A DNA stretch of 64,000 bases from Devosia ginsengisoli (GTDB taxonomy: Bacteria; Pseudomonadota; Alphaproteobacteria; Rhizobiales; Devosiaceae), in the NCBI RefSeq assembly GCF_024707105.1, contig NZ_JANQAJ010000006.1:1-64000 (forward strand), in the 5' to 3' direction. Shown in pieces: positions 52,066 to 63,248 of this stretch (position 1 is its first letter; the number at the start of each line of letters is the position of its first letter). The position numbers were made by a program, and so were the translations under genes. The notes under the pieces were generated by a model. That model was not told where the DNA came from, searched no databases, and worked only from the letters and a program-made list of their open reading frames with translations.

Positions 52066-52806
52066 TCAGTCGGCCCGCACCAGGCTGGCCGCAGCCTCGT
52101 CACAGAATACCAGAACCTTGGCATGCATCTGCAGTGCCGAGGCCGGACAAGCGGGCGTCTGCTTGCCTCGGAACGCCGTTTGCAGCGCCTCGGCCTTGGT
52201 GGCGCCGATGGCGACCAGCACGATTTCCCTGGCCTCGAGAATGGTGCCGATGCCCATGGTCACGGCGGTGGGAGGAACCGTTTCCCCTGCGGGGAAATCG
52301 GCCTTGTTGGCCTCCTGGGTCGAAGGTGTCAGATCGACCTGGCGGGTGCGGCTGTCAAAGGCCGATCCCGGTTCGTTGAAGCCGATATGGCCGTTCCGGC
52401 CGATACCGAGCAATTGCAGATCGATGCCGCCCGCCGCCGCAATGGCTGCCTCGTAGTTTCGGCAGGCCAGTTCGATGTCCCCTTCCACCGCCGGCAGGTG
52501 GCCATGGCCCTCGGGAAGATCAACATGATCGAACAAATGGCTTTGCATATAGGCGCGGAACGAGGCGACATGGCCGGGCGGCAGGCCCACATATTCATCG
52601 AGGTTGAAGCTGCACGCCTGGGCGAAAGACAAGCCGCCGGCCCGGTAGTGCTCGACCAGCGCCGCATAGACGGGCACGAATGTATTGCCCGTCGCCAGGC
52701 CAAGCCGGATCGCCGGCTGCGCAGCCAAACGGGCCGCGAGATGGGCCGCCACGGCATCGGTCGTGGCAGAAGCGGATGGGAAGATACGAAAATCCGGATT
52801 GGTCAT
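52066..52806 (-). CDS. nagB: Glucosamine-6-phosphate deaminase NagB
   Basis: A 246-residue NagB that converts glucosamine-6-phosphate to fructose-6-phosphate and ammonia. The sugar-ring-opening region SFNLDEYVGLP (about 66-76) and the catalytic GIGRNGHIGFNEPGS (134-148) are intact. It is the last gene of the leftward importer operon, 51 bases after a PfkB kinase gene. With the ABC importer upstream it shows that the imported compound yields an amino sugar phosphate. A NagB-like isomerase acting on another aminosugar phosphate is possible, but motif conservation is high. No nagA is present in the window. Confidence 0.93.
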   Translation of the reverse strand: MTNPDFRIFPSASATTDAVAAHLAARLAAQPAIRLGLATGNTFVPVYAALVEHYRAGGLSFAQACSFNLDEYVGLPPGHVASFRAYMQSHLFDHVDLPEGHGHLPAVEGDIELACRNYEAAIAAAGGIDLQLLGIGRNGHIGFNEPGSAFDSRTRQVDLTPSTQEANKADFPAGETVPPTAVTMGIGTILEAREIVLVAIGATKAEALQTAFRGKQTPACPASALQMHAKVLVFCDEAAASLVRAD

Positions 52807-52857
52807 GGATCAATCTTCGGGCGAAGGACCATGCCCTCGCCCCTTTCAAAACTGGAA

Positions 52858-53757
52858 TTATGCCGTGGCGGCGAGACTGCCGGTGCCGCCCGAGGCCTGC
52901 ACGGAGCGTGAACCGGCGGTGATCGCAGCGGACAGGCATTCGTCCGGGCTTGCGCCATCGAGCCAGACATTGAGGAAGCCGGCATTGAAGGCATCGCCGG
53001 CGCCGGTCGTGTCGACGACCTCGACCTGTGGACTAGGCAATGCGATGACGGCACCGTTCATGGCCAGCAGGGCGCCGTCGCCACCGCATTTCAGCGCCAC
53101 GACGGGGAAATGGCGCCCCAGAAGGGCCAGCGCGGCATGCGGATCATCGGTGCCGGTCAGGGCATAGGCTTCTTCCTGATTGGGCAGGAAGACATCGGTG
53201 CCCGCGCTGCGCTCGAAAAACAGCGGATCGCGGATGAGTTCATCGTCCCAACTGGGGTCGAGCGACACGGTCAGGCCATTGGCCTTGGCAGCCGTGATGG
53301 CGTCCCGCATTTCATGCAGGGTGGCATATTCGGCAATATGCAGATGCGTCGCCTCGGACCAGGCCAAAGCGCGCTCGAAGCTCGCCGGACGGGCATGGCC
53401 TGCCCGCAGCGACAGGAAAGCGCGGTCATTGTCGTTGACCATGACCACGGTCAGTTGCGGGCCGGCGGTTTCATGCCGATCGAGAAATTGCAGATCGAAC
53501 CCCAGCGCTTCGATCTGTCCGGCCAGAGCCACGGACAGGGAATCGGTGCCGAAACGCGCCAGCAACGCCGATGACCGTCCGCTCGCCGACAGATGCGCCG
53601 CCGTGATAAGCGCCCCGCCGCCGGGGGTCATGGTGAAGTCACGAGCGAAAAGCTCGCGGCCCAGTTGCGGCATGCCGCCCAGGCCACGAAACACCATGTC
53701 GCAATAGATGCGGCCGAGGCTGAGCACAGCCCCGGCTTTCCTTGGCGAAGACGTCAT
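52858..53757 (-). CDS. PfkB-family sugar kinase
   Basis: A 299-residue ribokinase-type kinase. The substrate-side glycines are in MTPGGGALITAAHLSASG, and the anion hole with the catalytic aspartate is VDTTGAGDAFNAGF near 243-256. The ATG overlaps the stop of the ATPase gene (ATGA) and nagB follows in the same direction. In this position it most likely phosphorylates the imported (amino) sugar or a product released from it before NagB acts. PfkB kinases phosphorylate Amadori products in other bacteria (FrlD, FraD), a relevant precedent. Confidence 0.92.
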   Translation of the reverse strand: MTSSPRKAGAVLSLGRIYCDMVFRGLGGMPQLGRELFARDFTMTPGGGALITAAHLSASGRSSALLARFGTDSLSVALAGQIEALGFDLQFLDRHETAGPQLTVVMVNDNDRAFLSLRAGHARPASFERALAWSEATHLHIAEYATLHEMRDAITAAKANGLTVSLDPSWDDELIRDPLFFERSAGTDVFLPNQEEAYALTGTDDPHAALALLGRHFPVVALKCGGDGALLAMNGAVIALPSPQVEVVDTTGAGDAFNAGFLNVWLDGASPDECLSAAITAGSRSVQASGGTGSLAATA

Positions 53758-60853: not shown

Positions 60854-60881
60854 TCTTTCAATTCGATTCGGAAATTTGCCG

Positions 60882-63248
60882 ATGCTTACCACTCGCGAAC
60901 GGCTGCGCCGCCAGGCCGCCAATCCCCACCTCATCGCCCTGCACAATGCCCTCGGACGGCTCGGCTCCCCGCTGACCGCCATGAATACCGGCGCGCATCC
61001 GGATGACGAGCACAATGGCATGTTGGCCACCTTGCGCCACCAATATGGCATGCGCATCGTGGTGGCCTGCTCAACGCGCGGCGAAGGCGGCCAGAACATT
61101 CTCGGTCCCGAACGTGGCGGCACCCTAGGCGTGCTGCGCTCGCGCGAGATGGAGGAAGCGGCGCGGGTGATCGACGCCGACATTGCCTGGCTCGGTCATG
61201 GCCCTGATGATCCGGTGTATGATTTCGGCTTCTCGAAATCGGGGCCTGATACGCTGGCGCGCTGGGGCGAAGACCGCACGATCGAGCGGCTGGTGCGTGC
61301 CTATCGGCAGTTCCGGCCCGATATCGTCATTCCCACCTTTCTCGACGTGCCGGGGCAGCACGGACACCACCGCGCGATGACCCAGGCGGCGGAGGCGGCA
61401 CTGGCCCTGGCCGCCGATCCGGCTGCCTTCCCCGAACATGGCTCCGAGGGCCTGCTGCCCTGGCGGGTCGCCAAATATTACCTGCCGGCCTGGTCGGGCG
61501 GCGGCAATGGCTATTATGACGACGAGGTGCCCCCGCCCGCGGCCACGACAAGCATAGTCGCCAACAGCCTGGACGCTGCGACCGGCCTTGCCTATGACCG
61601 GCTGGGCGAAGTGTCCCGCGCCAATCACGCCAGCCAGAACATGGGCCATTGGCGCCATCCCGGTGAACAATCCTGGGCACTACACCTGGTTGGCGGCGCG
61701 ACCGAGGCCGACATCACGACGGGCCTGCCCACAAGGCTCGCCGACCTGGCCGAGCTCGATGAGCTGGCCCAGGCCGATGCCGCCATGGCGGCGGCCAAAG
61801 CGGCCTTCCCCAATGGTCCGGCAGTGCTGAAGCACCTCATCTCCGCCCGCGCCGCCATCCGTGCCGCCGAAGGCCGCCTGACGGAAACCGCTCGAACCCT
61901 CCATGGCCATCGCCTCACTCGCAAGCTCGCGGAGATCGACGCCGCCATGGCGCTGGCAGCCAATATCAGCGTGCTGGCCAGCCTCTCTTCCGCCGATGTC
62001 GTACCCGGCGCCTCCCTCGACCTGATCGTCGAGGTCGAACCGGGCCTTGCCGACAGCATCGAGGTCGAACCGGTCACCGGCCCAATCCTCGACCCGGTTG
62101 CTGCCCGACGCGTGACCGAGGCAAAAACCATCCTGCCCCTGCAGCTCCGCACCAATGCCCCCGCTAGCAATGCCTTCGCCCCCGATTGGCAGACCCTGGG
62201 TGGCAATGGCGCCCTGTCCCTGCTCGTGCATGCCGATATTGCCGGCGAGCGCCTGTCGTTTCGGGTCGATACCGAGGAGCCCTTGCAGGTGGCGCCGCCC
62301 CATCCGCTGCAACTGACGCCCGAAGCACTCATCCTGCCGCTACCCGCCCATGGCCGGCACAGCATCGCCCTCAAGCCCGAAATCGACCCGGGGCGGCTGG
62401 CCATGGCAATGCCACCCGGACTGGCATTGGAGCGAGGCGACTCCGGACTCACGCTGGCAGCAGGCCCCGACCTGAAAGCGGGCCGCCACAGCCTGCCCCT
62501 CAGCGTCGATGGCCAGCCGGCCCATATCGTGACGCCGATCGCCTATCCACATATCGGGCGCACCCGCTTCGTGCAGCCCTTGACGCTCGATGTGCTGGCG
62601 CTCGACCTGACCCTGCCCACATCCCGTGTCGGCTATATCGGCGGCGGCAGCGATGGCGTGGGGCAGTGGCTGGCGCGCATGGGCGCCGATCCCATCATGC
62701 TCGATGCCGAAGCCCTTTCCGGTCCGCTGTCCGGATTGGACACGATCGTGGTCGGCATTTTCGCCTACGGCACCAGGCCCGACCTTGCCGCCGCCAATCC
62801 CCGGCTACGCGAATGGGTCGAAGCCGGCGGGCATCTGGTGACGCTCTACCACCGCCCCAGCGATGGCTGGGACCCCGACTCGACGCCGCCGCGTCATCTC
62901 GTTATCGGCTCGCCCTCCCTGCGCTGGCGCGTCACAAATCCGGCCGCACCGGTCACCATGCTGCTGCCCGATCACCCGCTGCTCGCCGGTCCGAACCGGA
63001 TCACGGCAGAAGACTTTTCCGGGTGGGACAAGGAGCGCGGCCTCTATTTCGCCGCCGACTGGGACAAGGCCTATGAACCGCTGCTGTCGATGAGTGATGC
63101 AGACGAAACGCCGCTACTCGGCTCGCTCGTCTCGGCCCCTATCGGCAAGGGCCGCCACACCCATACCAGCCTCGTTCTCCACCACCAGCTCGACCGCCTG
63201 GTGCCGGGGGCCTTCCGTCTCATGGCCAATCTGCTGCAACCCGCCTGA
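60882..63248 (+). CDS. PIG-L/LmbE-family deacetylase-like protein with long C-terminal region
   Basis: A 788-residue protein. The N-terminal 260 residues are a PIG-L/LmbE domain with the zinc motif AHPDDEHN (38-45) and the second histidine region PGQHGHHRAMTQAA near 155-168; such enzymes remove acyl groups from N-acetylglucosaminyl compounds. A helical linker follows, then a beta-rich middle (about 360-560), then a GATase1/ThuA-like Rossmann region (about 570-785; VGYIGGGSDGVGQWLARMG). No signal peptide is seen, so it should act in the cytoplasm. It starts 28 bases after the ROK regulator gene and is probably co-transcribed with it. This length and layout match large PIG-L proteins of sugar-catabolic loci. 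Confidence 0.88.
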   Translation: MLTTRERLRRQAANPHLIALHNALGRLGSPLTAMNTGAHPDDEHNGMLATLRHQYGMRIVVACSTRGEGGQNILGPERGGTLGVLRSREMEEAARVIDADIAWLGHGPDDPVYDFGFSKSGPDTLARWGEDRTIERLVRAYRQFRPDIVIPTFLDVPGQHGHHRAMTQAAEAALALAADPAAFPEHGSEGLLPWRVAKYYLPAWSGGGNGYYDDEVPPPAATTSIVANSLDAATGLAYDRLGEVSRANHASQNMGHWRHPGEQSWALHLVGGATEADITTGLPTRLADLAELDELAQADAAMAAAKAAFPNGPAVLKHLISARAAIRAAEGRLTETARTLHGHRLTRKLAEIDAAMALAANISVLASLSSADVVPGASLDLIVEVEPGLADSIEVEPVTGPILDPVAARRVTEAKTILPLQLRTNAPASNAFAPDWQTLGGNGALSLLVHADIAGERLSFRVDTEEPLQVAPPHPLQLTPEALILPLPAHGRHSIALKPEIDPGRLAMAMPPGLALERGDSGLTLAAGPDLKAGRHSLPLSVDGQPAHIVTPIAYPHIGRTRFVQPLTLDVLALDLTLPTSRVGYIGGGSDGVGQWLARMGADPIMLDAEALSGPLSGLDTIVVGIFAYGTRPDLAAANPRLREWVEAGGHLVTLYHRPSDGWDPDSTPPRHLVIGSPSLRWRVTNPAAPVTMLLPDHPLLAGPNRITAEDFSGWDKERGLYFAADWDKAYEPLLSMSDADETPLLGSLVSAPIGKGRHTHTSLVLHHQLDRLVPGAFRLMANLLQPA

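Follow-up and report, generated by a model that had tools for sequence, protein, structure and literature searches.

Uptake operons for glucosamine and N-acetylglucosamine (GlcNAc) that contain NagB or NagB-II combine a CUT1 importer, a ROK regulator and a deaminase. The Fra and Frl systems of fructosamine catabolism link an importer to a PfkB kinase and sugar-phosphate processing, and the LmbE-like deacetylases MshB, Mca, BshB and Bca carry a PIG-L domain with an AHPDDE zinc motif. All of these elements recur in two divergent units of Devosia ginsengisoli (assembly GCF_024707105.1, contig NZ_JANQAJ010000006.1, positions 1 to 64,000; this stretch of 64,000 nucleotides is called the window below). 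The leftward unit encodes, in order, a binding protein, two permeases, a lyase of the argininosuccinate lyase (ArgH) family, an ATPase, a PfkB kinase and NagB. The divergent unit encodes a ROK regulator, a PIG-L protein and a DMT permease.

The locus differs from each of these systems. Compared with the amino-sugar uptake operons, the lyase and PIG-L form the conserved core here and the deaminase is optional. Compared with Fra and Frl, no FrlB/FraB-type deglycase was seen in the module, the kinase reached 54.7 bits against a cut-off of 247, and a fumarate-type lyase and PIG-L are added. Compared with MshB, Mca, BshB and Bca, PIG-L scores stayed below every cut-off, the Devosia enzyme has additional Ig-like and C-terminal domains, and the tie is to uptake rather than to thiol synthesis. 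We propose that the operon pair takes up and dismantles a conjugate of an N-acyl-glucosamine and a C4 dicarboxylic acid, from which the lyase would free fumarate and glucosamine; we regard this reading as almost evenly balanced between right and wrong. Among the titles and abstracts listed by searches of the open-access literature, with subscription papers mostly outside their coverage, none described this module.

The lyase and its relation to ArgH

The lyase resembles ArgH (TIGR00838; 2e9f, 9ggj, 1tjw) in its fold, serine loop, HTARSRND motif, T159/H160 pair and dicarboxylate-binding residues. It differs in being about 31-34% identical, in the replacement of the arginine-side loop and the N-terminal segment, in its separate clade and in its sugar-operon setting. 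An earlier note on this DNA had pointed to the catalytic serine loop at residues 281-290 and to HTARSRND, and had stated that the lyase departs from ArgH around these retained motifs. Both motifs were present, the loop as SSIMPQKRNP and HTARSRND at 108-115, and the residue comparison and the tree agree with that statement. When 54 family members, among them the window lyase, were aligned with 13 ArgH sequences, the catalytic and dicarboxylate residues S112, R113, N114, T159, H160, S281/S282, K287, N289 and E294 were invariant in all 54 lyases. The leaving-group positions were changed, yet equally invariant: where ArgH has D, Y, Q and KG, the family has V291, D321, E326 and H315-N316, respectively, with D321 and E326 in 54/54 family lyases against Y and Q in 13/13 ArgH. 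The position of an ArgH K, seen in five ArgH rows, was N323 in most family rows and T in two. The Y..K..Q loop and the N-terminal segment of ArgH have roles in arginine binding; in the family, a segment resembling FPxPxYxxTVLxPL replaces the ArgH start.

The lyase tree set the family apart from seven ArgH rows by a branch with 100/100 support, and a previous lyase tree gave the same split (SH-aLRT 100). The earlier note had also raised the question whether the genome holds another argH, and a second gene scored 618 bits against TIGR00838, compared with 308.6 for the operon lyase. The best NCBIfam model was the argininosuccinate lyase-like PRK06705 (NF005218; 502 positions), which, to our knowledge, is functionally uncharacterised. 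It was the top model for the window lyase and the Deinococcus deserti lyase alike (333 and 278 bits), both far under its cut-off of 883 bits.

The structure of the lyase was predicted from a 12-sequence alignment (pLDDT 86) and used for a fold search, in which the EDDS lyase of Chelativorans (6g3d-6g3i) was closest (TM 0.84), followed by ArgH. Both lyases are about 500 residues long, and the equivalents of R112, N113 and N288 are kept, whereas identity is 27-30%. In the accessible text of PMC12363623, the substrate-near residues of EDDS lyase comprise R112, N113, Q159, N288, D290 and Y320. Here Q159 corresponds to H160, D290 to V291, and Y320 is not kept, its equivalent column being shifted by one between two lyase alignments. 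Orthology to EDDS lyase was rejected on the replaced residues and on the tree, where it lies on a different branch, although its fold is the closest.

Among the same-genus and order genomes scanned, orthologues were at least 57% identical to the window lyase and the next matches at most 37%; one family member, on a Terrarubrum plasmid, was 49% identical. The combined marker QKRNPV plus HNxPFxDxxD was found in 110/110 distinct alphaproteobacterial lyases belonging to the family and in 7/7 lyases from Deinococcus. These comparisons support a separate, non-ArgH clade of the superfamily in which the residues for fumarate chemistry appear intact and the leaving-group side differs.

Other ArgH-like genes were seen in passing. 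On a Cereibacter plasmid (L220) and on Sinorhizobium meliloti pSymB (L196), such genes lie in amino-acid ABC operons with MmgE/PrpD genes, in one case with a SIS gene; they are candidates for different succinyl-amine lyases. On a Natribaculum plasmid (L193), a haloarchaeal lyase that is ArgH-like and has a comparable HN..F.D loop stands beside succinate-dehydrogenase-like genes.

Conservation of the gene set in two phyla

To describe the gene set across Alphaproteobacteria, 120 fetched loci were reduced to 110 with distinct lyases; a gene was scored absent when tblastn with a threshold of E 1e-10 found nothing in a range of 9 kb, or of 5 kb in the case of the importer genes. The ATPase was present in 108 loci, the binding protein and each permease in 107, ROK in 105 (102 divergent), PIG-L in 100 (98 divergent), PfkB in 94, the DMT permease in 61, NagB in 12, NagB-II in 6 and an MBL-fold hydrolase in 3. 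About 100 of the 110 loci repeat this gene set with its orientation unchanged, which confirmed that its recurrence exceeds chance. The named loci, the best 80 of 481, cover Devosia, Pelagibacterium, Chelativorans, Rhizobium, Agrobacterium, Neorhizobium, Aminobacter, Microvirga, Martelella, Ochrobactrum/Brucella and others. No arginine-synthesis neighbours were annotated in the module regions viewed. The MBL-fold, AidB-like hydrolase heads the operon in three loci (L091, L093, L094) and adjoins it in Terrarubrum. The Terrarubrum plasmid locus (L210) is a lyase operon with the hydrolase and a DMT permease, adjoining nadA and L-aspartate oxidase genes.

The host is a Devosia: its nearest protein in public records, at 98% identity, comes from Devosia ginsengisoli. 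The lyase was carried by 18 of 37 same-genus genomes. Among 397 genomes of the order, 35 had the lyase and 25 a long PIG-L (E<=1e-80), and all 25 were among the 35 (Fisher p 6.6e-32; this and the percentages ignore the relatedness of the genomes). Other PIG-L-domain genes occur elsewhere in 7 of the 10 lyase genomes without the long form. The earlier note had suggested checking whether the lyase travels with PfkB, PIG-L and NagB, and had taken a lyase found only here, with the other genes recurring without it, as a sign against its idea. The lyase does travel with PIG-L and PfkB, and the long PIG-L was never seen without the lyase in these genomes. NagB, which the note had counted as part of the set, proved to be a lineage-limited accessory: it follows PfkB in the 12 loci and in the window, all from Devosia or same-genus genomes, and was rejected as conserved core.

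Other lineages fill the slot differently. In three loci (L080, L081, L189) the position after PfkB holds NagB-II, a SIS-fold deaminase unrelated to NagB, and in two more (L093, L094) NagB-II is divergent and adjoins the operon. The SIS gene of L081 reached 316 bits with the NagB-II model NF046059, under its cut-off of 430; the two SIS genes scanned fitted NagB-II (316 and 257 bits) better than fructoselysine-6-phosphate deglycase (19 and 32 bits). Of 28 genomes, hand-chosen from lyase carriers outside Devosia, 7 had their best NagB-II-like gene no more than 12 kb away from the lyase. NagB- and NagB-II-bearing loci formed separate lineages on the locus-level lyase tree, whose change count used 105 of 111 rows, six truncated loci being excluded. 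Glucosamine-6-phosphate deaminases of two unrelated folds have joined the operon, pointing to glucosamine as the probable product.

A plasmid search with the binding protein as query extended the distribution from bacteria of soils and plants to Deinococcus. On seven plasmids the lyase, binding protein and two permeases form one co-directional run, with no ATPase gene annotated in any of these runs. Four of the seven (D. deserti, D. wulumuqiensis, D. ficus and D. actinosclerus) additionally carry ROK, a PIG-L of one domain and a carbohydrate kinase, which is of the PfkB type in D. deserti. Two of the short PIG-Ls scored 145 and 147 bits as MshB and 81 and 77 as BshB2, all below the cut-offs. 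The Deinococcus lyases share 33-35% identity with the window lyase, hardly more than ArgH does (31-34%), and the D. deserti lyase stayed under the TIGR00838 cut-off (264.1 against 279.5 bits). Six aligned Deinococcus lyases share V291, H295, H315-N316, F319, D321, N323 and D324, and the seventh has the same loop. Deinococcus and window-family lyases formed one clade at 98/92 in a tree with long branches. Since the loop is shared despite about 34% identity, the changed pocket accompanies the importer among the loci viewed, except in two (L082 and L083) treated below. In Deinococcus AJ005 and Thermus oshimai, both Deinococcota, a relative of the binding protein had no lyase alongside. In addition, nagZ was seen on two Deinococcus plasmids. 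Together, these observations support a genetic link of the lyase to the importer, PIG-L, kinase and ROK in two phyla.

Organisation and regulation of the Devosia locus

The features of the locus are collected in the table; all genes lay where the earlier note had placed them. The PDB entry nearest to the window NagB was the NagB structure 2bkv (178 bits). All NCBIfam models scored below their cut-offs for the PfkB kinase. For the binding protein, translation more likely begins at the internal ATG at 59433 than at 59508. Its nearest solved structures were mixed sugar binders at no more than 90 bits, and a ligand assignment from these relatives was dropped.

Table. Features of the two divergent units in the window, with coordinates, strand and supporting matches
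Feature	Position	Strand	Basis
NagB, glucosamine-6-phosphate deaminase	52066..52806	-	Glucosamine_iso domain PF01182 82 bits vs cut-off 27; TIGR00502 231 vs 236.9, slightly short
PfkB-family sugar kinase, predicted glucosamine kinase	52858..53757	-	PF00294 134 bits
ABC importer ATPase (UgpC/MalK type)	53754..54821	-	PRK11650 466.6 bits, above cut-off of 432
Argininosuccinate-lyase-family lyase, separate clade; fumarate release predicted	54821..56329	-	Profile, alignment, fold search, tree
Sugar ABC permease 2	56333..57193	-	PF00528
Sugar ABC permease 1	57190..58122	-	PF00528
Extracellular solute-binding protein (SBP_bac_1)	58195..59508	-	PF01547 137 bits
Predicted ROK operator TAACTCAAGTAGATTA, then TTGACA box	59548..59563	-	Consensus TAAYTCAAGTNRATTA
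ROK-family transcriptional regulator	59630..60853	+	NagC model 77 bits, below cut-off of 650
PIG-L (LmbE-like) deacylase, predicted cytoplasmic	60882..63248	+	PF02585 67 bits vs cut-off 28
DMT/EamA-family permease	63250..64140, beyond window end at 64000	+	PF00892 110 bits

The zinc motif of PIG-L is intact, as its AHPDDE and HGHH motifs are conserved, the downstream His metal ligand included, and the protein belongs to the LmbE-like/PIG-L domain family by its profile match. The predicted model and a fold search revealed extra Ig-like and C-terminal alpha/beta parts in the Devosia enzyme. Its start codon, ATG at 60882, lies 37 codons ahead of AHPDDE, a distance of 37-38 codons in nearly all loci, and no signal peptide was seen by eye; a secreted main PIG-L acting before import was thus considered unsupported. 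A second PIG-L with a Tat-like signal, judged by eye, exists in some genomes. As far as the accessible part of a review goes (PMC4101496), the LmbE-like enzymes identified by 2014, BshB included, all act on N-acetyl- or N-acyl-glucosamine cores.

The sequence TAAYTCAAGTNRATTA occurs within three mismatches in 111 of 113 intergenic regions between ROK and the binding protein, 75 times exactly, compared with 5 of 565 shuffled regions at the same match level; the 113 regions were not collapsed for duplicates and the consensus was drawn from them. Two loci (L096, L097) lack the site, and a TTGACA box often follows it. The assignment as ROK operator is predicted. In the Devosia genome the window site is the sole exact match. 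A similar site with two mismatches lies 92 bases upstream of the second PIG-L, beyond the window, and in four other genomes such a site precedes the corresponding gene by about 90-107 bases; it has two mismatches in all five genomes checked. More genomes show paired sites at similar spacing, with gene starts unverified and overall counts near control. Sites with at most two mismatches numbered three in the Devosia genome against four for the reversed control, and in 24 further genomes the two-mismatch counts were often at control level. A wider ROK regulon was therefore rejected, which leaves the site near the second PIG-L as the sole credible one, on account of its position.

A further CUT1-type ATPase followed by a DeoR-family regulator (47853-49827) probably closes another sugar operon, and a 394-residue minus-strand open frame and a divergent DJ-1/PfpI-domain gene lie between the two operons (49871-51714). 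Past the window, a sialic-acid-like locus (64124-76845) encodes an N-methyl-tryptophan-oxidase-like FAD enzyme, the second PIG-L with the Tat-like signal, a NanE-NanK fusion, a DapA/NanA-like aldolase, a Dpp-type importer and a GntR-like regulator.

Predicted pathway and competing explanations

The enzymatic steps, regulation and substrate proposed here are predictions that build on the observed gene content, conservation, operator sequence, residue patterns and phylogeny. The CUT1-type ABC importer would bring the conjugate in whole, and the cytoplasmic PIG-L would strip its N-acyl group; the second PIG-L, with its Tat-like signal and similar operator, may do so outside the cytoplasm. The serine-loop base of the lyase would take a proton from the CH2 of the C4 unit and expel the sugar, giving fumarate and glucosamine, and the invariant acidic residues D321 and D324 could hold its ammonium or hydroxyl groups. 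PfkB would then phosphorylate glucosamine, and NagB, or elsewhere NagB-II, would convert glucosamine-6-phosphate to fructose-6-phosphate. Both units would stay repressed by ROK until an inducing amino sugar is present.

An imported N-acyl-glucosamine with a 1,2-dicarboxyethyl group fits every core part, and the idea of the earlier note that the imported compound links an amino sugar to a C4 acid now appears stronger. That fumarate and glucosamine are released from some glucosamine-C4 conjugate seems to us an even bet. Because described PIG-L enzymes act on N-acyl-glucosaminides, glucosaminyl-malate of the bacillithiol type is the leading candidate. The carbon skeleton and (S) centre of an L-malate glycoside suit the superfamily, and fumarase is a precedent for C-O elimination. 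A malate glycoside as the specific substrate is nevertheless a tentative choice that we consider unlikely. The same doubt applies to the full scheme, a two-phylum salvage of bacillithiol-type compounds in which soil bacteria would import N-acyl-glucosaminyl-malate and deacylate it with PIG-L, and the lyase would break the sugar-malate C-O bond, eliminating fumarate. A glycoside would then be cleaved through elimination by a member of the fumarase/aspartase superfamily.

The best-surviving alternative, which we judge distinctly improbable, is an N-linked conjugate, the fructose-aspartate Heyns product N-(1,2-dicarboxyethyl)-glucosamine. ArgH-type C-N elimination would yield fumarate and glucosamine for the kinase and deaminase. 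This chemistry is standard in the ArgH branch and requires no C-O elimination, and its product is what NagB and NagB-II use. On the other hand, we know of no Heyns-product pathway of this kind, though no search under that name was made, and PIG-L would be left without a clear job although it is present in 100/110 loci; described LmbE-like enzymes hydrolyse N-acyl groups (PMC4101496, in the text accessible).

An Amadori route, in which fructosyl-aspartate or fructosyl-asparagine would yield fumarate and 1-amino-1-deoxyfructose, is very improbable. Fructosamine-route PfkB kinases (FrlD) are relatives of the kinases here, yet the fructoselysine 6-kinase model gave the window PfkB 54.7 bits and the D. 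deserti kinase 64.4, both far under 247. The scanned SIS genes are NagB-II-like rather than deglycase-like, and PIG-L has no role. 1-Amino-1-deoxyfructose is no substrate of NagB, which disfavours the fructosyl-aspartate option of the earlier note.

We attach little credence to GlcNAc-asparagine from N-glycoproteins, which PIG-L would deacetylate and the lyase would attack at the asparagine part in an aspartase-like manner before an amidase frees glucosamine. The compound is abundant in nature, and amino-sugar genes lie nearby (nagZ in the two Deinococcus cases, the NanE-NanK fusion in the window genome). The bulk of the sugar would fall on the carboxamide side, while in ArgH-type enzymes it is the leaving-group side that binds bulk, and an extra amidase is required; aspartylglucosaminidase was not annotated in the module regions viewed, beyond which no search was made. 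Finally, that the lyase is a second argininosuccinate lyase (ArgH2) riding by chance in a sugar operon is scarcely credible: its profile score and public annotation speak for it, and the separate 618-bit ArgH, D321 and E326 in place of Y and Q, the different N-terminal segment, the 100/100 clade and the lack of annotated arginine-synthesis neighbours in the regions viewed speak against it.

Several observations weigh against the release of fumarate and glucosamine from an imported conjugate. The operon lyase clears the curated TIGR00838 cut-off (308.6 against 279.5 bits), so databases name it ArgH, and public records annotate family members as argininosuccinate lyase. PfkB was not found in 16/110 loci, one of these at a contig end, and deaminase genes occur in just 18/110. 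No match reached the NagB-II cut-off, and some signal was present in 28/28 genomes and 14/14 controls alike, presumably due to the related GlmS. PIG-L is absent from 10 loci, two by contig ends and three with the MBL-fold hydrolase. NagB-II occurs in 5 of the 8 PIG-L-less loci with room for it (L080, L081, L093, L094, L189) against 1 of 100 PIG-L loci, an enrichment the proposed pathway leaves unexplained. In L082 and L083, a lyase with the same loop lies beside an LldD-type lactate-dehydrogenase gene and, by eye, a GntR-like regulator, with neither importer nor PIG-L at the lyase locus. Three of the seven Deinococcus plasmids have the lyase and importer genes only, and E326 is G in Deinococcus lyases. 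ArgH-type enzymes usually cut C-N bonds, whereas a malate glycoside requires C-O elimination, and Deinococcus synthesises bacillithiol, so that a lyase acting on glucosaminyl-malate in the cytosol could deplete the organism's own precursor.

With release of fumarate and glucosamine from an amino-sugar conjugate as the preferred reading, the public label 'argininosuccinate lyase' probably hides a feeding pathway under an arginine-synthesis name in many Rhizobiales, some Rhodobacterales and Deinococcus genomes. The marker QKRNPV plus HNxPFxDxxD permits re-annotation and direct assay. If the substrate is glucosaminyl-malate, the module would show soil bacteria feeding on the redox thiol of a neighbour, and the reach of fumarase-type chemistry would widen to include sugar conjugates.

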